Shown: in pieces, positions 15,125 to 62,848 of the stretch
Layout of the letters: each line of letters opens with the position of its first letter
Position numbering within the stretch: the stretch's first letter is position 1
Source of the DNA: Alkalihalobacillus sp. LMS39
GTDB lineage: Bacteria; Bacillota; Bacilli; Bacillales; Bacillaceae_F
Direction: 5' to 3'
NCBI RefSeq assembly: GCF_022812285.1
Contig: NZ_CP093300.1
Span: 1,798,001-1,862,000, forward strand
DNA length: 64,000 nucleotides
The notes under the pieces: model-generated
What the model was told of the DNA's origin: nothing
The model's input: the letters and a program-made list of their open reading frames with translations, nothing else
Databases searched by the model: none
Position numbers and translations under genes: made by a program

Positions 15125-15151
15125 CGAAAAAACGCTCCCGCGTTTTTCTTT
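15125..15151. repeat. GACGCTCCGCG-type hairpin repeat, copy 1
   Basis: GAAAAAACGCTCCCGCGTTTTTC-like hairpin between the yqeY terminator and the sigma-W promoter. It is the terminal module of the dispersed repeat also seen at 18779, 28014, 39889, 48576, 55632 and 56840. Confidence 0.75.
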
Positions 15152-15256: not shown

Positions 15257-16597
15257 ATGGGTTCAAAAAAAAGGGTGGGATTTTTTGCTTTTCTCATGCT
15301 CTTAGGCATTGTGCTTATCCCTTTCCAATTGTTTGTACATAGTCAAGAAGAAGCCGATGGAAACCGTCCAATCGTTTATTTTATTCCTGTTGAACAAACG
15401 GTTGAACGAGGATTAGAAGCTTTTATGAAGCGCTCATTTACCCAAGCTGTTGAAGAACGAGCTGATCATATCGTGTTAGAAATTGATACCCCAGGTGGTG
15501 CAGTAGAAGCAGCAGGAAATATTGCGACGTTATTAAGACAAACGGAAACGCCGATTACCGCGTTTGTCACAGCAAAAGCGATTTCAGCAGGTGCGTATAT
15601 TTCATTGAATGCTGATGAAATTGTAATGGTACCAGGGACGACAATGGGAGCAGCAGGAATAATCGATGGAGCAGGCAATGCAGGTGATCAAAAAGCGCAA
15701 TCGTATTGGTTAGCAGAAATGAGAGAATCAGCAGAGTTAAACAATCGTGACCCAAAATATGCCCTTGCAATGGCAGATAATTCAATTGATTTACCTGAAC
15801 TTGGAGCGCCTACAGGTGAGTTCTTAACGTTAGGAGCCACTCAAGCACTTGAAGTCGGGTATGCAGAAGCGTTAGCGAATAATCGTGAAGAACTTCTAGA
15901 TTATCTTGGGTTAGAAAATGCTTTAATAAAAGAAACCGATGTCAGTTTTGCTGAACAAATTGCGCGGTTTGTTACTCACCCTGTCGTGATTCCTATTTTA
16001 CTATCCATTGGAAGTCTTGGATTAGTATTAGAATTGTATTCCCCTGGTTTTGGAATACCAGGAATTATGGGCTTAAGTGCATTACTGTTATTTTTCTTTG
16101 GTCATATGTTTGCGGGTTTTGCTGGCTGGGAATCCATAATATTATTTATAGTCGGAATCCTGTTAATCTTAATAGAAATATTTGTGCCTGGTTTCGGAAT
16201 TTTTGGTGCCCTTGGTATTGGTTCGATTATTGGAAGTATGGTGTTAGCGTCATTCTCTACAATGCATATGCTGATTTATATTTTAATTGCTGTTATCGTA
16301 TCAGCGGTTGCTTCCGTCATTGTATTTAAATATTTTGGTAATCGGGGACCGATGAAGAAAATTGTATTCAAAGGGGCAACAACAACAGAAGAAGGCTATA
16401 TTTCTAATGTAACAAGAGAAGAACTTATCGGTCAAACCGGTGAAACACTTACCCCGCTCCGACCAGCAGGTTCAGCTGTCTTTAACCATGAACGACTTGA
16501 CGTTGTTTCTGAAGGAGGCTATATTGGACAGGGGAAGAAAATCGAAGTGGTATATACTTCAGGTTCAAGAATTGTAGTAAGACAAGTACAAGAATAA
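15257..16597 (+). CDS. yqeZ: NfeD-family membrane protease homologue (YqeZ)
   Basis: Long-form NfeD protein, 446 residues. After an N-terminal membrane segment comes a ClpP-like serine protease domain (EIDTPGG, catalytic Ser in KAISAGAYIS), then a block of four to six membrane helices (about 250-370) and a C-terminal OB-fold NfeD domain (GQTGETLTPLRPAG). Long NfeD proteins are partners of flotillin-like proteins such as FloA, which lies directly downstream. Of two adjacent ATGs, 15257 has 6-nt spacing to AAAGGAGG. Expression should follow envelope stress through the sigma-W promoter. Confidence 0.92.
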   Translation: MGSKKRVGFFAFLMLLGIVLIPFQLFVHSQEEADGNRPIVYFIPVEQTVERGLEAFMKRSFTQAVEERADHIVLEIDTPGGAVEAAGNIATLLRQTETPITAFVTAKAISAGAYISLNADEIVMVPGTTMGAAGIIDGAGNAGDQKAQSYWLAEMRESAELNNRDPKYALAMADNSIDLPELGAPTGEFLTLGATQALEVGYAEALANNREELLDYLGLENALIKETDVSFAEQIARFVTHPVVIPILLSIGSLGLVLELYSPGFGIPGIMGLSALLLFFFGHMFAGFAGWESIILFIVGILLILIEIFVPGFGIFGALGIGSIIGSMVLASFSTMHMLIYILIAVIVSAVASVIVFKYFGNRGPMKKIVFKGATTTEEGYISNVTREELIGQTGETLTPLRPAGSAVFNHERLDVVSEGGYIGQGKKIEVVYTSGSRIVVRQVQE

Positions 16598-18158: not shown

Positions 18159-18201
18159 GGAGCCACAAACGTGATTATCGCGTTTGTGGCTTCTTTTTTT
18201 A
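18159..18201 (+). terminator. Terminator of the yqeZ-floA operon
   Basis: GCCACAAACG pairs with CGTTTGTGGC around a 9-nt loop, extended by wobble pairs, followed by seven T residues. Confidence 0.92.
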
Positions 18202-18214
18202 AAAGATAAGAAAG

Positions 18215-18347
18215 ATAAAAATTTTGGTCTAGCAGCTAAGTTTTGAAAGTTTAATCTAGAATAGCGAAGGCTTTTGCACCTGCGCGTTTCAACCGAAGAA
18301 GAGCATTTGGGGGTTCACTGTCAAAAGCGGGCAGGGGTCCGCACTTC
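18215..18347. repeat. Long dispersed repeat, copy A
   Basis: About 133 bp starting ATAAAAATTTTGGTCTAGCAG and ending near GGGCAGGGGTCCGCACTTC. It is nearly identical to 18637-18767 (422-bp offset) and shares end modules with 39806-39880. The 798-bp gap 18154-18951 holds this copy, a four-unit element and copy B; I see no gene in it. Confidence 0.9.
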
Positions 18348-18362
18348 TCTTGTAGCGAAAAG

Positions 18363-18390
18363 ACCCAAGTGAATCATTCAACACTTGGGT
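18363..18390. repeat. Hairpin after repeat copy A
   Basis: ACCCAAGTG and CACTTGGGT form a perfect 9-bp stem around 10 nt. There is no clean T-run, so terminator activity is uncertain. Confidence 0.5.
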
Positions 18391-18433
18391 TGGGTTTATC
18401 GCGTTAGCAATTTTGTTGTTTATGGTAAGTATG

Positions 18434-18614
18434 CGGCCATGAAAACCGTTATCTGTGAACATGGCTAGCGTTTTGGAACGTTGGTGGACACAGGAGCAGT
18501 TAATCATAATATATCACTAGGAATAGAGTTGTTTTTGCGTGAATAAGAGCTCCTGTGGCCGCTAAAAAACGGAAACCCGTATAAAGTTCACAAATAACGG
18601 CTGCTCTGACCGCA
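18434..18614. repeat. Four-unit TARCGG-N6-TGTCCG element, copy 1
   Basis: Four degenerate 18-nt units at 18434 (-), 18485 (-), 18544 (+) and 18595 (+), for example TAACGGTTTTCATGGCCG (reverse complement of the first). Start-to-start spacing is 51, 59 and 51 bp. The same order and spacing recur at 39581 and 61778. This copy is the most diverged and lies between repeat copies A and B. Confidence 0.7.
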
Positions 18615-18636
18615 AAAATGAGACAAATGAGGGAGT

Positions 18637-18806
18637 ATAAAAATTTTGGTCTAGCAGCTAAGTTTTGAAAGTTTAATCTAGAAGAACGAAGGCTTTTGCA
18701 CCTGCGCGTTTCAACCAAGAAGAGAACTTGGGGTTCACTGTCAAAAGCGGGCAGGGTTCCGCACTTCGCCGCTTAAAAAGAAAAAGATGCTCTCGCGTTT
18801 TTCTTT
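18637..18806. repeat. Long dispersed repeat, copy B, with terminal hairpin
   Basis: Near-identical to copy A through 18767, then continues into the hairpin module (GATGCTCTCGCGTTTTTC-like) around 18785-18804. A and B form a direct repeat enclosing the four-unit element. Confidence 0.88.
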
Positions 18807-18951
18807 ATTTTTAGAAACAAAGAATCGGAACTTGTGACAGTTGTTTGCAAGCGAAAAATGAGAATTCAGAAAAGAAACGGACAAAATCGACTTTTTAGTG
18901 ATAGTGGACCATCTTTCTTCATAAAAATGAGAGGAGAGGAGGTCTTGATGC

Positions 18952-37727: not shown

Positions 37728-38438
37728 ATGAACGAATTACAATTATCGAAACGACTTGAATGTGTGGCAAACTATGTGACAGAAGGGAGTAAAGTAGCAG
37801 ATATTGGTTCAGACCATGCTTATTTGCCTTCGTTTTTATATCATCAAGGAAAAATTACATTTGCTATTGCGGGAGAAGTGAATCAAGGACCATATGAATC
37901 AGCGTTGAATCAAGTAAGGAAATGTCACTATGAAGATGTGATATCAGTTCGTAAAGGAGATGGACTTGCCGTTATAGAAAATGGTGAGGTAGATACGATT
38001 ACGATTGCTGGAATGGGAGGGGCATTAATCGTTCAAATACTAGAAGCTGGAAAAGCGAAACTAAGTGGTGTGACCCGATTAATTTTGCAACCGAATGTCA
38101 TGGCAGATAAAATTAGAATTTGGTTAAAAAGCAATGGTTGGGAATTAACAGGGGAAGAAATTCTCGAAGAAGATGGCAAAGTATATGAAGTTCTTATTGC
38201 AGAGCAAGGAAACCCTGATGCTCCTTATTCAGAAAATAAAGCTGTACAATTATTGCTTGGTCCTTTCTTAATGAAAGAGAAAAATGCAGCATTTCAAAAA
38301 AAATGGCGCAGTGAAATTGAGAGCTGGAAACGTATCGTGGCGCAATTTTCTGAAGCCAAACAAACGGAAGAAGTGAAGCAAAAAAAACAAGAGTTTCAAA
38401 CGTTAATTCAAAATGTTGAGGAGGTTTTATCAACATGA
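37728..38438 (+). CDS. trmK: tRNA (adenine22-N1)-methyltransferase TrmK
   Basis: 236-residue SAM-dependent methyltransferase modifying A22 of bacterial tRNAs. The SAM motif VADIGSDHAYLP is at about 22-33 and the catalytic-pocket segment TITIAGMGGALI at about 90. A C-terminal coiled coil (about 190-236) is characteristic. It overlaps yqfO by 4 bp (ATGA junction), the usual pair. Confidence 0.93.
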   Translation: MNELQLSKRLECVANYVTEGSKVADIGSDHAYLPSFLYHQGKITFAIAGEVNQGPYESALNQVRKCHYEDVISVRKGDGLAVIENGEVDTITIAGMGGALIVQILEAGKAKLSGVTRLILQPNVMADKIRIWLKSNGWELTGEEILEEDGKVYEVLIAEQGNPDAPYSENKAVQLLLGPFLMKEKNAAFQKKWRSEIESWKRIVAQFSEAKQTEEVKQKKQEFQTLIQNVEEVLST

Positions 38439-39553
38439 AGTATAGTCATGGTCAGACAATTATTCAAACTTTTGAACAATGGGCACCAAAATCACTTGCT
38501 GTTGAAGGTGATAAAAATGGTGTCATGGTCGGAACATTACAAAAGCAAGTGAAAAAAGTAATGATAGCATTAGATGTATTAGAAGACGTTTTGGATGAAG
38601 CGATTTCTGAACAAGTTGATTTGATTATCGCTCATCATCCGCTTATTTTCCGACCATTAAAACAAATTCGGACGGATCATACATATGGAAGAATCATTGA
38701 AAAAGCAATCAAACATGATATTACAATTTATGCTGCCCATACGAATCTTGATGTAGCTATCGGTGGTGTCAATGATATGATGGCAGAAGCGTTAGGTATA
38801 GAACAAACAGAAGTTCTAGCACCGACGATGGAGAAAAAACTTAAGAAATTTGTGGTTTATGTTCCACGTTCACATGAAGCGGTTGTTCGCGAAGCGATAG
38901 GTACGGCAGGAGCAGGACATATTGGCGATTATAGCCATTGCTCTTTTAGTAGTGAGGGAGTTGGTCGTTTTACACCTTTAGAAGGCTCAACCCCTTTTAT
39001 AGGACAACAAGGAAAGTCAGAGTCCGTTGAAGAAATCAAACTAGAGACGATTATCCCAGCAGAACTCCAACAACAGGTTATTCGAGCCATGATAAATGCT
39101 CATCCGTATGAAGAGCCGGCATATGATATTTATCCACTTGATAATAGAGGAGAAAGTCTAGGGCTAGGAAGAATTGGCTATTTACAAGAAGAAATGACAT
39201 TAGAGCAATTTGCTCACCATGTAAAAAAAGTATTTGATGTTAGTGGAGCTAGAGTGGTTGGAAATTTACAAGATAAAGTGAAAAAGGTTGCAGTCCTCGG
39301 TGGGGACGGAAATAAATATATGAACCAAGCGATTTTTAAAGGAGCAGATGTTTTCGTGACAGGTGATGTGTATTACCATGTTGCTCATGATGCTATGATG
39401 GATGGTCTTCGTATTGTGGACCCAGGTCATAATGTGGAAAAAATAATGAAAGACGGGGTAAAACGATATTTAGACCGTTATGTAAAGGAAGCAAACTCAA
39501 AAACAGAAATCATTGTTTCTAACATACATACTGACCCTTTTTCGTTTATCTAA
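38435..39553 (+). CDS. yqfO: Nif3-like dinuclear metal protein YqfO
   Basis: 372 residues: NIF3 halves flanking a central PII/CutA-like insertion (about 135-235), as in B. subtilis YqfO. Metal ligands are in IAHHPLIFRPLK, AAHTNLD and the C-terminal TGDVYYHVAHDAM. Proposed roles are GTP cyclohydrolase-like or metal-handling; not settled. Confidence 0.92.
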   Translation: MKYSHGQTIIQTFEQWAPKSLAVEGDKNGVMVGTLQKQVKKVMIALDVLEDVLDEAISEQVDLIIAHHPLIFRPLKQIRTDHTYGRIIEKAIKHDITIYAAHTNLDVAIGGVNDMMAEALGIEQTEVLAPTMEKKLKKFVVYVPRSHEAVVREAIGTAGAGHIGDYSHCSFSSEGVGRFTPLEGSTPFIGQQGKSESVEEIKLETIIPAELQQQVIRAMINAHPYEEPAYDIYPLDNRGESLGLGRIGYLQEEMTLEQFAHHVKKVFDVSGARVVGNLQDKVKKVAVLGGDGNKYMNQAIFKGADVFVTGDVYYHVAHDAMMDGLRIVDPGHNVEKIMKDGVKRYLDRYVKEANSKTEIIVSNIHTDPFSFI

Positions 39554-39580: not shown

Positions 39581-39761
39581 CGGACATCTGTACCGCTACT
39601 TCATAATAATTGAGTTATTTTCCATGCTTTACGGACACCTGTTCTGTTATTCTTGTAAATTTGCCTTATAGAAGCCTCGATTTCTTAATGTAGCGGAATG
39701 AATGTCCATTAGCATTTACAAAACGTTTCTTTTTATTAAAATAGCGGAATAGATGTCCGTA
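39581..39761. repeat. Four-unit TARCGG-N6-TGTCCG element, copy 2
   Basis: Units at 39581 (-), 39631 (-), 39691 (+) and 39742 (+); for example TAGCGGAATAGATGTCCG at 39742. Spacing is 50, 60 and 51 bp, as in the copies at 18434 and 61778. It fills the convergent gap between yqfO and ispH. Confidence 0.85.
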
Positions 39762-39806: not shown

Positions 39807-39910
39807 AAAAATTTTGGTGTAGCAGTGAAGCTTTGAAAGCTATTTCACTTTCAAAAGCGGGCAGGGCTCCGCACTTCGCTTGAAAGAAAAGACGCTACGC
39901 GTTTTTCTTA
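39806..39910. repeat. Long dispersed repeat with terminal hairpin, third full copy
   Basis: Contains AAATTTTGGTGTAGCAGTGA, then CAAAAGCGGGCAGGGCTCCG, then GAAAAGACGCTACGCG with TTTTTCTT, ending directly before the ispH stop codon. It lacks the middle ~60 bp of copies A and B. Confidence 0.88.
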
Positions 39911-39911
39911 A

Positions 39912-40859
39912 TTACTTACTCTTCTGTTTTACCTTTGGCAAAATTTTATTTAACGCAATTTTTCTCTCTCGCACCCATGTTGATTCATCATTAGGGTCAA
40001 ACTTTTCTAAAAAGTCAATGACCTCTTTTGTGATTGGTGTTGGGGTAGATGCCCCTGAAGTGACTCCAACTACATTTACACCTTCTAGCCATTCTAATTG
40101 AAGTTCTGTTACATCTCCAATTCGATATGCTTTTGTTCCAGCGATATCTTCAGAAACTTGGGCAAGGCGATTTGAATTATTACTTTTAGGGTCTCCTACA
40201 ACAATAACTAAATCGGTTTGCTTTGCTTGTTCTGCTACGGCTTCTTGACGTACTTGAGTTGCAAGGCAAATTTCATTATGAATTTCTGCGTGTGGAAACT
40301 TTTTAATAGCATGATTCATAATGTCAGAAACATCCCACTGACTCATTGTCGTCTGGTTTGTAATAATAATTTTATCTACGTTTAAGTCTAGCTGCTCAAC
40401 TTCGTCAACGTTTTGGACAAGATGAACAATATCGGGAGCTACACCTAACGCGCCTTCAGGTTCTGGGTGTCCTTTTTTACCAACATAAATGACATGATAG
40501 CCTTCTGCTTTTTTCTCGCGAATTAAATCATGCGTTTTCGTTACATCTGGACAAGTCGCATCAACAACTGTCAGCCCTTTTTCACGAGCGACTTTACGAA
40601 CTTCAGGTGATACACCGTGAGCTGTAAAAATAACCGTCCCTTTTTCAACTTGTTTAATAATATCTAATCGATTGGGACCGTCTAATGAAATAATTCCATC
40701 TTCCTCAAACGCATCAGTCACATGCTTATTATGAACAATCATTCCTAGTATATAAATAGGTCTAGGTAAATCAAGATTTGCTGCCGCTTGTCTTGCTAGT
40801 ACCATGGCGTCTACAACACCATAGCAATACCCACGAGGGGAAATTTTGTTGACTTTCAT
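39912..40859 (-). CDS. ispH: 4-hydroxy-3-methylbut-2-enyl diphosphate reductase
   Basis: Last enzyme of the MEP isoprenoid pathway, 315 residues. The three Fe-S cysteines are in [15 protein letters not shown] and [14 protein letters not shown] and TAHGVSPE carry the active-site histidines. The start matches the family at [14 protein letters not shown] with AGGAGG upstream. A longer frame to 40928 has no support. Confidence 0.95.
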
Positions 40860-40939
40860 AGTCGTCCTCCTACATTTAGAAAAAGTCTTTCTGTCCATCA
40901 TTATAAAGGAGGAAGGAGTGTGTGACAAACAAAAACTCG

Positions 40940-61027: not shown

Positions 61028-61672
61028 ATGGAAATGTTAGAAATAGCAACGATTGGTTTTCTAGTTGTGTTCTTAGGAACGTTATTTTTAATTGGTGAAT
61101 TATTAGTTAAAGCTAAAGGATTATTTGGCCTTTTAGGCATTGGTATTATGACGATTTATTTTTCATATCATCTTACTGGGGAGACAGGGTTATGGGTTGT
61201 TTTACTTTATATTCTCGGTTTATTACTGTTCATTGTTGATGGAAAGGTTGTTAATGATGGAACCGTCGCAGCATTAGGTGTCATTCTGATGATACTAGGG
61301 CTAGCGATTCCATCCCCCAATATGATTTACGGTATTTTAGTTTCAATGGCTTTTTTAGTCGGAGGATTTAGCTCGCTATTATTTTTAAAAGTATTCCCGC
61401 CTCGAAATATGTGGTCAAAAATGACATTAAAAAACAAGCTTTCGAGTGAAGAAGGATATAATTCAATCAATGAAACGTATGTTCAATTGGTTGGCAGAAA
61501 AGGAGTAACCGTTAGTCCGTTCCGCCCAACAGGAACAGTGAAAATCGATGATGAACTATACAGTGCAACGAGCGGGAGTCAATGGCTTTCAGAAGGTGAA
61601 ACGATTGAAGTTATCTCAGTCGATGGTACAAGGATTGTTGTTAGAAGGGTAGAGCAGGATAATAAACAATAG
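61028..61672 (+). CDS. Short NfeD-family protein (YuaF-like)
   Basis: 214 residues: four or five membrane helices (about 5-125) and a C-terminal OB-fold NfeD domain (VQLVGRKGVTVSPFRPTGTV...RIVVRRVEQ). It lacks the serine-protease domain of YqeZ. YuaF-type proteins partner FloT, but no flotillin gene is adjacent here. The start ATG has GAGGAGG upstream, and expression is expected under envelope stress. Confidence 0.87.
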   Translation: MEMLEIATIGFLVVFLGTLFLIGELLVKAKGLFGLLGIGIMTIYFSYHLTGETGLWVVLLYILGLLLFIVDGKVVNDGTVAALGVILMILGLAIPSPNMIYGILVSMAFLVGGFSSLLFLKVFPPRNMWSKMTLKNKLSSEEGYNSINETYVQLVGRKGVTVSPFRPTGTVKIDDELYSATSGSQWLSEGETIEVISVDGTRIVVRRVEQDNKQ

Positions 61673-61777: not shown

Positions 61778-61957
61778 TGGACATCTATTCCGTTATATTT
61801 CGATAAAGTGGTGTTTGAGGAATGCTTCGGACTTAGGTTCCGTTACATTAGGAAAATCAGCTATATTTTGTCTGACTTTAGGCAAATAGCGGAACGTTTG
61901 TCCGATAGCAAGAGAAAACAACCTTATTTTATGTAAAATACCGGATTAAATGTCCGA
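61778..61957. repeat. Four-unit TARCGG-N6-TGTCCG element, copy 3
   Basis: Units at 61778 (-), 61828 (-), 61887 (+), 61939 (+); for example TAGCGGAACGTTTGTCCG at 61887. Spacing is 50, 59 and 52 bp. It occupies the convergent gap between the YuaF-like and DUF1189 genes; the gap holds no other feature. Confidence 0.85.
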
Positions 61958-61993: not shown

Positions 61994-62027
61994 AAAGAAA
62001 AAACCCAAAGATTATTCTTTGGGTTTT
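61994..62027 (-). terminator. Terminator overlapping the DUF1189 stop
   Basis: On the minus strand AAAACCCAAAG pairs with CTTTGGGTTTT, then a T-rich run. The first arm encodes the last residues (KPKE), so the stop codon is in the loop. Confidence 0.85.
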
Positions 62028-62848
62028 ACATCCTCATTTTCCTCTTCTGGACCGGCTTCGACAGGTGTTGCTGGCTTGCGCTTAGGTTTTGGCACTTTCT
62101 TTACAACCAATGTCAAAATAGCTATGGCAATAAGCCAATAAAAAACAAAGGGATATGGTACAGTGATTAATAATTTAATGTAAGCGAACAAAATCGTTGG
62201 TAATGTGACAGTATAAGCAGACATAATCCAAAGGTGACGATATTTCACATTCGAATGTAATGTTTCTTTGATGATTAAACCAATGACAGCCAATACAGTA
62301 ACACCAATAAATTTTAAGGCTGTATTGTATAAATACATAATTACAGCAATCACTACTATAATTAAAGGCATCATACCGCCGACACTATTTACAATGCCTT
62401 CAATATTTTCTGATGTAAAATTAGACATTCCCATAGCTGCTAGGTCATTGAAATAAAAGGATTCTGCATATCCATCTTGAACAAAAACGATTTCTGTTTC
62501 TAGAATAGCTACACCCGTCTCGTATTGGACAACATCATCATAAGTAATGACCCCGGTCGTATCAAAGATAAAAACGCCTTCGTCATCCTCCTCAATAATG
62601 GGTTCCTCCATATCAGAGATTAACACGCCGTTATTCATCTCAAAATAAGGAATATCATATTCAAATGCTTCTTGGACGGATTTGACCGCTTGTGTTAAGG
62701 TTGTCCCGAATGAAATGATAGAAGGCAAAGTCGCAATGAGCATTAATAAAAATACATATAATATCGTTTTTCCGATCCCTTGAAAGCGAAAGAGGGCAAT
62801 ATCGATTGGTGAATGTAAACTTTTCAAAAACTGCTTAAAAATATTCAT
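62012..62848 (-). CDS. DUF1189 membrane protein (YqgB-like)
   Basis: 278 residues. One N-terminal helix (about 28-50), an extracytoplasmic domain rich in acidic residues (about 55-155), four C-terminal helices, and a Lys/Pro then Glu-rich tail. Matches the DUF1189 family, of which B. subtilis YqgB is a member. Function unknown. AAGGAG lies 7 nt before the ATG. Confidence 0.83.
   Translation of the reverse strand: MNIFKQFLKSLHSPIDIALFRFQGIGKTILYVFLLMLIATLPSIISFGTTLTQAVKSVQEAFEYDIPYFEMNNGVLISDMEEPIIEEDDEGVFIFDTTGVITYDDVVQYETGVAILETEIVFVQDGYAESFYFNDLAAMGMSNFTSENIEGIVNSVGGMMPLIIVVIAVIMYLYNTALKFIGVTVLAVIGLIIKETLHSNVKYRHLWIMSAYTVTLPTILFAYIKLLITVPYPFVFYWLIAIAILTLVVKKVPKPKRKPATPVEAGPEEENEDVKPKE

Follow-up and report, generated by a model that had tools for sequence, protein, structure and literature searches.

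The window, the whole stretch of 64,000 nucleotides analysed here (positions 1,798,001-1,862,000 of the single-contig, 4.85 Mb genome G000), contains three groups of four short units, two of which lie between convergent open reading frames (Table 1). In a preliminary description the three groups were treated as copies of one element built from units that fit TARCGG-N6-TGTCCG. All 12 unit positions were confirmed to within one base, with the order minus, minus, plus, plus in each group and start-to-start spacings of 51/59/51 (18434), 51/59/51 (39581) and 50/59/52 (61778), whereas the fit to the pattern is exact for three of the 12 units (39581, 39742 and 61887) and includes 1-3 mismatches in the other nine. 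The groups belong to two families rather than one: those at 39581 and 61778 represent family I, and that at 18434 represents family II. The DNA between units, which had been called poorly conserved, is so letter by letter in the two family I groups, although a phased A/T pattern is common to the spacers of that family, and the family of the 18434 copy is conserved from end to end. The constant order of the units had also been presented as a regularity of orientation; since this order is dyad-symmetric it reads identically on either strand, so its constancy provides no independent evidence of direction.

Table 1. Repeat elements, their units and adjacent open reading frames in the window (window coordinates)
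Feature	Position	Strand	Remarks
Family II element, 193-bp type	18433..18623	+	degenerate units 18434-, 18485-, 18544+, 18595+; 51/59/51 geometry
ORF	38435..39553	+	3' end 27 bp ahead of the 39581 element
Family I element	39581..39759	.	four units (39581-, 39632-, 39691+, 39742+); flanked by convergent ORFs
Unit 1, TAGCGGTACAGATGTCCG	39581..39598	-	match to TARCGG-N6-TGTCCG, exact
Unit 2, TAACAGAACAGGTGTCCG	39632..39649	-	match to TARCGG-N6-TGTCCG, 1 mismatch
Unit 3, TAGCGGAATGAATGTCCA	39691..39708	+	match to TARCGG-N6-TGTCCG, 1 mismatch
Unit 4, TAGCGGAATAGATGTCCG	39742..39759	+	match to TARCGG-N6-TGTCCG, exact
ORF	39912..40928	-	convergent, far side of the 39581 element
ORF	61028..61672	+	upstream of the 61778 element
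Family I element	61778..61956	.	units 61778-, 61828-, 61887+, 61939+; flanked by convergent ORFs
ORF	62012..62848	-	convergent, far side of the 61778 element

Within the window alone, single units with up to three mismatches number 49, against 37.4 (sd 6.9) in shuffled sequence, an excess that is not significant, as 7 of 100 shuffles reached this count. The excess over chance is settled at the level of the genome, where exact TARCGG-N6-TGTCCG units occur 823 times (407 + 416) and the reversed control pattern once (1 + 0), and where there are 318 same-strand unit pairs and no control matches. Spacing and orientation are not random across the genome either, as 65 of the 103 unit clusters found in 1.2 Mb (with up to three mismatches) have exactly the minus, minus, plus, plus order of a full element. 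A relaxed scan identified 102 full family I elements in 1.88 Mb of G000, the window included, and because 353 of the 823 exact units fall within these regions, the number of elements in the whole genome is estimated at 200-250. Scans for the geometry that were blind to sequence gave 26 matches in 160 kb of G000, the 16 listed all being the family I unit, and no matches in the same 160 kb when arm spacings of 44-46 or 56-58 bp were used; in 80 kb of another genome (G058), picked around known pairs, they gave six matches, none of them at the wrong arm spacings.

The spacing of family I is strict. Across the 1.88 Mb of G000, same-strand pairs separated by 20-90 bp have an arm spacing of 50-52 bp in 197 of 198 cases (51 bp in 179, 50 in 13 and 52 in 5, with one pair at 32), and the inner spacing is 61-64 bp in 86 of 87, the exception being 44. 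In two regions of G001, a relative of the same genus, arms are spaced by 50-52 bp in 68 of 68 cases and inner spacings are 61-64 bp in 29 of 30 (exception, 67). Among the loci fetched from named genomes, for which the search pattern itself fixed the spacing of at least one arm, the inner spacing is 61-62 bp in 52 of 55 and 72 bp in three when A. bogoriensis is left out, and in the A. bogoriensis loci, which overlap G001, it is 62-63 bp in 26 of 28 and 71 bp in two. These five inner spacings of 71-72 bp are longer by about one helical turn; a single Paenibacillaceae MAG accounts for three of them and a single A. bogoriensis locus for the other two, so they represent few independent events. The distances between unit centres, 51, 62 and 51 bp, are close to 5, 6 and 5 helical turns, which places all four units on the same side of the DNA.

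A logo of the unit, compiled from 52 non-redundant elements (65 minus one with another left-arm spacing and 12 near-duplicates), reads TARCGGAAYNNATGTCCG and then WWA, and the 18 nt of the unit form the core of an imperfect dyad of 21 bp, TARCGGA-N7-TCCGWWA. The two arm types of an element can be distinguished (log-likelihood -8508, versus -8647 for re-paired arms, sd 13.5, in 139 elements), and the orientation of elements by arm type has a weak bias relative to genes or replication. A unit variant with the core CGT lies along the direction of replication in 65 of 84 copies, a polarity that is read as strand composition skew at neutral positions. The A/T content of 78 elements, units included, has a period of 10.25 bp over the whole element; in the spacers alone the best period is 10.75 bp (power 0.316, shuffled maximum 0.006), and phasing in the flanks is small (best power 0.037 and 0.049, versus 2.57 in the element). 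Conserved AAA and TTTT tracts flank, at a distance of ~5 bp, the point halfway between two unit centres, and a wedge model predicts a bend slightly above that of controls (76.7, versus 60.5 for shuffled and 65.4 for random sequence). Family I therefore has sites in phase with the helix, as is looked for in a protein-wrapped architectural site.

The family I copies at positions 15567, 40152, 105369, 260883 and 388500 of G000 are nearly identical, also resemble each other closely in the left flank, and were perhaps copied inside a larger repeated unit, such as rRNA operons. There is also a gap of ~150 kb (G000 1,059,568-1,210,031) with no paired family I match in the plus-strand listing and populated regions on either side.

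The same geometry recurs outside G000, with unit centres 51-62-51 bp apart in Rossellomorea, Gracilibacillus, Salibacterium, Paenibacillus and others, the kind of recurrence for which the preliminary description had proposed a search of relatives. A scan of named genomes with a one-arm pattern found at least 120 loci under at least 20 genome titles; among the matches listed, the full geometry is present at 101 of 120 loci and under 15 of 20 titles, which include Rossellomorea, Salibacterium, Gracilibacillus, Texcoconibacillus, Halalkalibacter, Pontibacillus and several Paenibacillus, and a locus in a Prolixibacteraceae MAG has a chance-like pair alone. Among 61 relatives the paired pattern is present in four (G000, G001, G058 with 33 and G013 with 1) and is absent from G002, of the same genus, and four other family members, and the exact paired pattern is rare in the class, being found in 3 of 299 genomes of an even sample with G000 counted. 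Sequence-blind scans of 80 kb each detected nothing in G003, G004 and G005, and in 80 kb of G002 they detected seven matches, which are 52-nt repeats of other palindromes. One unit pair was also observed in a viral contig of 16.6 kb (L287 1475-1540).

Divergence between two species varies across the parts of the element. In 21 orthologous pairs, chosen on the G000 side only, unit cores differ at 35 of 1159 sites (3.0%), variable unit positions at 26 of 329 (7.9%), A/T peaks of the spacer at 30 of 522 (5.7%), other spacer positions at 68 of 806 (8.4%), the element centre at 64 of 858 (7.5%), the adjoining 60 bp on each side at 208 of 2492 (8.3%), and DNA 60-300 bp away, which is largely genes, at 391 of 10077 (3.9%). 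The cores diverge about one third as fast as their own spacers (p 1.7e-7 against other spacer and 2e-10 against the adjoining 60 bp), and this comparison indicates that they are under purifying selection; as the value for distant DNA is close to that for cores, their conservation is that of constrained DNA and is not extreme. For the A/T peaks, conservation is not significantly higher than in the other spacer positions of these 21 pairs (p 0.07). An earlier set of 14 pairs, in which the element was required in both species and some probable paralogues were included, gave differences of 9/784 in cores, 26/224 at variable unit positions, 16/364 in A/T peaks, 58/560 in other spacer, 64/574 in the centre and 264/1680 in the 60-bp flanks. 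Element by element, there are no core changes in 10 of the 21 pairs, one or two in five and more in six. One module of ~51 bp differs in two of these pairs (G000 1402022 versus L115 and G000 3905134 versus L218), being missing once in each species, a difference of the kind that tandem repeats show, so four units are not strictly required. When the 102 G000 elements were compared with G001, 24 had a match across both flanks and the element, 9 had a match to one flank, 68 were without comparable sequence, and in one case the gap differed in size and both species carried an element; no clean empty site for family I was seen in this comparison, and an empty-site query of 8 kb in G002 yielded short matches alone, at 67-79% identity.

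The elements are also placed selectively with respect to genes, as a comparison of copy position with gene orientation, another check proposed at the outset, revealed. Genes predicted with a home-made caller cover 76-86% of the regions, and none of the 102 elements lies inside one (an earlier, cruder caller placed 1 of 88 inside an ORF). Convergent gaps are favoured (39 of 102 elements, versus 97 of 592 gaps of at least 180 bp, p 2e-6), divergent gaps are avoided (5 of 102, versus 122 of 592 such gaps, p 4e-5), and in co-directional gaps, as judged from 45 elements in the first 1.42 Mb, the nearer gene boundary is the upstream gene's 3' end (median distance 86 versus 180 bp). As a DNA element, family I is genuine: it is abundant, under selection and strict in its geometry.

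Family II is an element of 193 bp with a median identity of 96% to its consensus (35 long copies, from which the consensus was itself built), and it carries unit-like motifs at 51/59/51, the same spacing as family I. A 34-base piece locates it, with up to three mismatches, at 71 places in the genome (31 plus, 40 minus). Its strand follows replication in 70 of the 71 when one switch is fitted between 2,465,288 and 2,516,420, and in 68 of the 71 when the switch is put at the exact middle of the genome; G000 starts with ORFs that, named by eye from their sequence, we take to be dnaA-, dnaN- and recF-like, and its GC skew is positive in the first 1.42 Mb and negative in 3.6-4.0 Mb. Two long copies between genes that both point the opposite way follow replication and not the genes, and the polarity of the family could reflect either replication-coupled insertion or selection for one polarity. 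At the position in G001 that corresponds to the window copy there is no family II element but a single copy of a neighbouring repeat, and in the reverse case a family II copy of G001 lies in a stretch of ~900 bp that is absent from the window near 15,130. Of 21 genomes searched, only G000 and G001 yielded the family, and the sequences indicate that it has spread recently. Its copies are too alike for an analysis of covariation, with a double change in 2 of 46 pairs of the fold. A third repeat, aaattttggtctagcag...aaaagcgggcagggctccgcacttcgcttg, is present at window positions 18210-18360, 18640-18800 and 39807-39880 and is often next to family II; it flanks the 18433 copy on both sides and occurs once at the matching place in G001.

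Two readings of the conserved geometry had been offered in the preliminary description, a long-range fold or an array of protein sites about five helical turns apart. On the former, family I would be a structured RNA or bidirectional terminator in which units 1-4 and 2-3 pair into a long transcript hairpin, and its position downstream of genes would fit a terminator. Single copies do fold better than shuffles (z -5.3, -4.2 and -4.9), but this fold energy is already explained by the inverted order of the conserved units. Clear covariation of the spacer arms, against which such a hairpin can be judged, was not found: in one genome (44 elements) the arms are identical at 14.52 of 33 positions within an element and at 14.75 between elements (p 0.74), and in a multi-species set (the 135 elements with 33-base spacers out of 177 non-redundant ones) the values are 14.61 and 14.23, with a p of 0.05 that is borderline at most. 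In the multi-species set compensation is almost absent: a core difference in one pairing unit is answered in its partner in 1 case of 158, and a change that falls on a local-stem position inside a unit disrupts the base pair in 144 of 155 cases. Weak correlations between the units predicted to pair are in favour of the hairpin, since in the single genome the identity between whole units 1 and 4 is a little higher when both belong to one element (15.38 versus 15.15 of 18 positions, p 0.03), a correlation links unit 2 to unit 3 at position 11 (p 0.0015), and in the multi-species set position 11 correlates in units 1-4 (p 0.003) and 2-3 (p <0.001). Non-pairing unit pairs of that set also correlate, however (p 0.01-0.09), and positions 10, 11 and 19 do so in pairing and non-pairing pairs alike, which is the pattern expected from species differences; these weak unit correlations apart, the covarying base pairs of a structured RNA were not seen in either set. 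There are no matches to Rfam families in the window, nor in 18200-18900 at E up to 1. A simple, home-made scan of 166 gene ends that face an element placed a terminator before the element in 34, after it in 13 and nowhere in 119, and for none of these gene ends did it find an intrinsic terminator (a stem and then a T run) inside the element, a location that was scored only where none lay before it. A long-range fold is not supported by these comparisons, and we regard a structured RNA or terminator as quite unlikely.

A different proposal is that family I is a non-autonomous, MITE-like mobile element, whose four sites would be transposase-binding ends with two sites per end, as in MuA, TnsB or IS21-type ends. 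Hundreds of copies with two arm types must have spread by copying from a common ancestor, and family II, which has the same geometry and near-identical copies, differs in its presence between G000 and G001 at two places. Against this, the copies of family I appear to be old, occupying places common to both species wherever both flanks are comparable, and the purifying selection that acts on their cores is not expected of dead copies; nor is there a linked transposase. A RAYT/Y1 transposase was rejected as mobiliser, as Y1 matches occur in all nine genomes searched, both carriers and non-carriers of the element, and a RAYT-type Y1 gene near 4.572 Mb is adjoined by a different palindrome. We regard a mobile element of this type as an unlikely account. 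The 21-bp dimer-operator form of the unit could instead point to a conventional operator array, through which a transcription factor would regulate neighbouring genes, but the hundreds of copies, their rigid 2+2 geometry, and their depletion in divergent (promoter) gaps with enrichment in convergent gaps and at 3' ends make such an array very improbable.

The reading of family I as a protein array is well supported by its sequence features, being backed by the dyad units, the A/T phasing, the strict spacings and the slow divergence of the unit cores relative to their spacers, and the element is probably a dispersed chromosomal protein-assembly site. In the mechanism that we infer, a putative dimeric DNA-binding protein would occupy all four dyads, and the phased A/T tracts would allow ~165 bp of DNA to be bent or wrapped into a single compact nucleoprotein complex, two-fold symmetric about its centre. 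Less certainly, this complex may act on the DNA itself, separating transcription units as an architectural or insulating node that would hold supercoils, stop read-through or anchor the nucleoid; a comparable role has been proposed for REP/BIME clusters in enterobacteria. A binder of the family I units was not found in this analysis, in which ~65 clusters with units outside full elements were listed, many of them family II. As a defined bait of 180 bp, family I can be used to search for such a binder, and its phasing is testable by single insertions; if a wrapped complex forms as proposed, Bacillota would have a chromosome-organising site of a new kind.

Several known systems share part of this description. 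REP/BIME and REPINs are palindromic, number in the hundreds and lie between genes at 3' ends, possibly with an architectural role, and family I resembles REP/BIME in its number, its intergenic position at gene 3' ends and the role that it may have. In contrast to family I, which has no clear hairpin constraint, a REP unit is a short hairpin with an associated RAYT gene. A RAYT-like Y1 transposase gene of G000 (L308 2780-3367) stands next to GGGTGTCAGACACCC palindromes, a family II copy lies ~0.7 kb from it, and no match to the window family I copy was found within 6 kb of it, in contrast to what is expected of a REPIN. Lrp/LrpC octamers are DNA-wrapping proteins, as are phage phi29 p6 and RemA, and in these systems regularly spaced or phased sites carry DNA round a multimer; a similar wrapping is what we infer for family I. 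We know of no DNA-wrapping protein with 21-bp dyads at a 51-62-51 spacing.

The preliminary description knew of no named element with this layout. Its class, arrays of dyads at 51-52 bp, had already been published, but the inverted 2+2 layout differs from what is described there, and no such 2+2 element appears in the titles and abstract openings of the open-licence literature searched. The closest published counterpart is the 52-nt tandem repeats of Bacillus and Paenibacillus reported by Subirana and Messeguer, which have no known function and for which a polymerising protein or small RNAs were proposed (PMC8161180); family I is an inverted 2+2 variant of these. Satellites of B. coagulans are reported to be transcribed in another article by the same authors (PMC8625621). 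Like the 52-nt repeats, family I has a constant period of ~51-52 bp, a variable sequence and short signals with their reverse in each repeat, and it is found in Firmicutes, patchily over species and with many copies per genome (PMC8161180). The length criterion of 51-53 nt is matched when a tolerance of 1 nt is allowed, and the common period, dyad signals, patchiness and lack of known function are the reasons for classing family I with these repeats. Unlike them, it does not have the four or more head-to-tail repeats that define the published class (PMC8161180), but two direct units per arm in inverted arms around a 62-bp centre, and its unit sequence is not specific to one species or its close relatives but is common to several genera, the full element being present under 15 of 20 titles among the matches listed.

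Longer direct runs of the family I unit occur at a few Paenibacillus and Aquibacillus loci only, and at the Paenibacillus loci (L210, L229 and L237) the unit runs on as longer direct arrays that join the 2+2 element with up to seven direct units. G000 itself also has 52-nt arrays of other dyads, TGTCCTTCAT... and TGTCCAATAGAA..., and whereas family I spacers have the form AAAA-N-TTTT, the linkers of most tandem arrays in G000 are nearly T-free on one strand. Arrays at G000 206457-206759, 1328963-1329539 and elsewhere have dyad arms of ~10 bp and loops of ~7 nt, and in most multi-unit arrays the nearly T-free strand of the linkers usually follows the direction of replication and of the majority of genes, although G000 942771 and G001 provide exceptions; by these features the 52-nt arrays of G000 look like transcribed hairpin arrays. 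The 52-nt repeats have been a puzzle, as their length is constant, their sequence drifts and their function is not known, and family I gives this puzzle a fixed, symmetric and countable form with a recognition sequence common to several genera. It is possible, although we consider it doubtful, that many Bacilli share an undescribed nucleosome-like system, in which putative dimers would bind 21-bp dyads five turns apart and wrap the DNA, with the 2+2 element as a closed particle form and the 52-nt tandem repeats, which use other site dialects, as an open polymer form.
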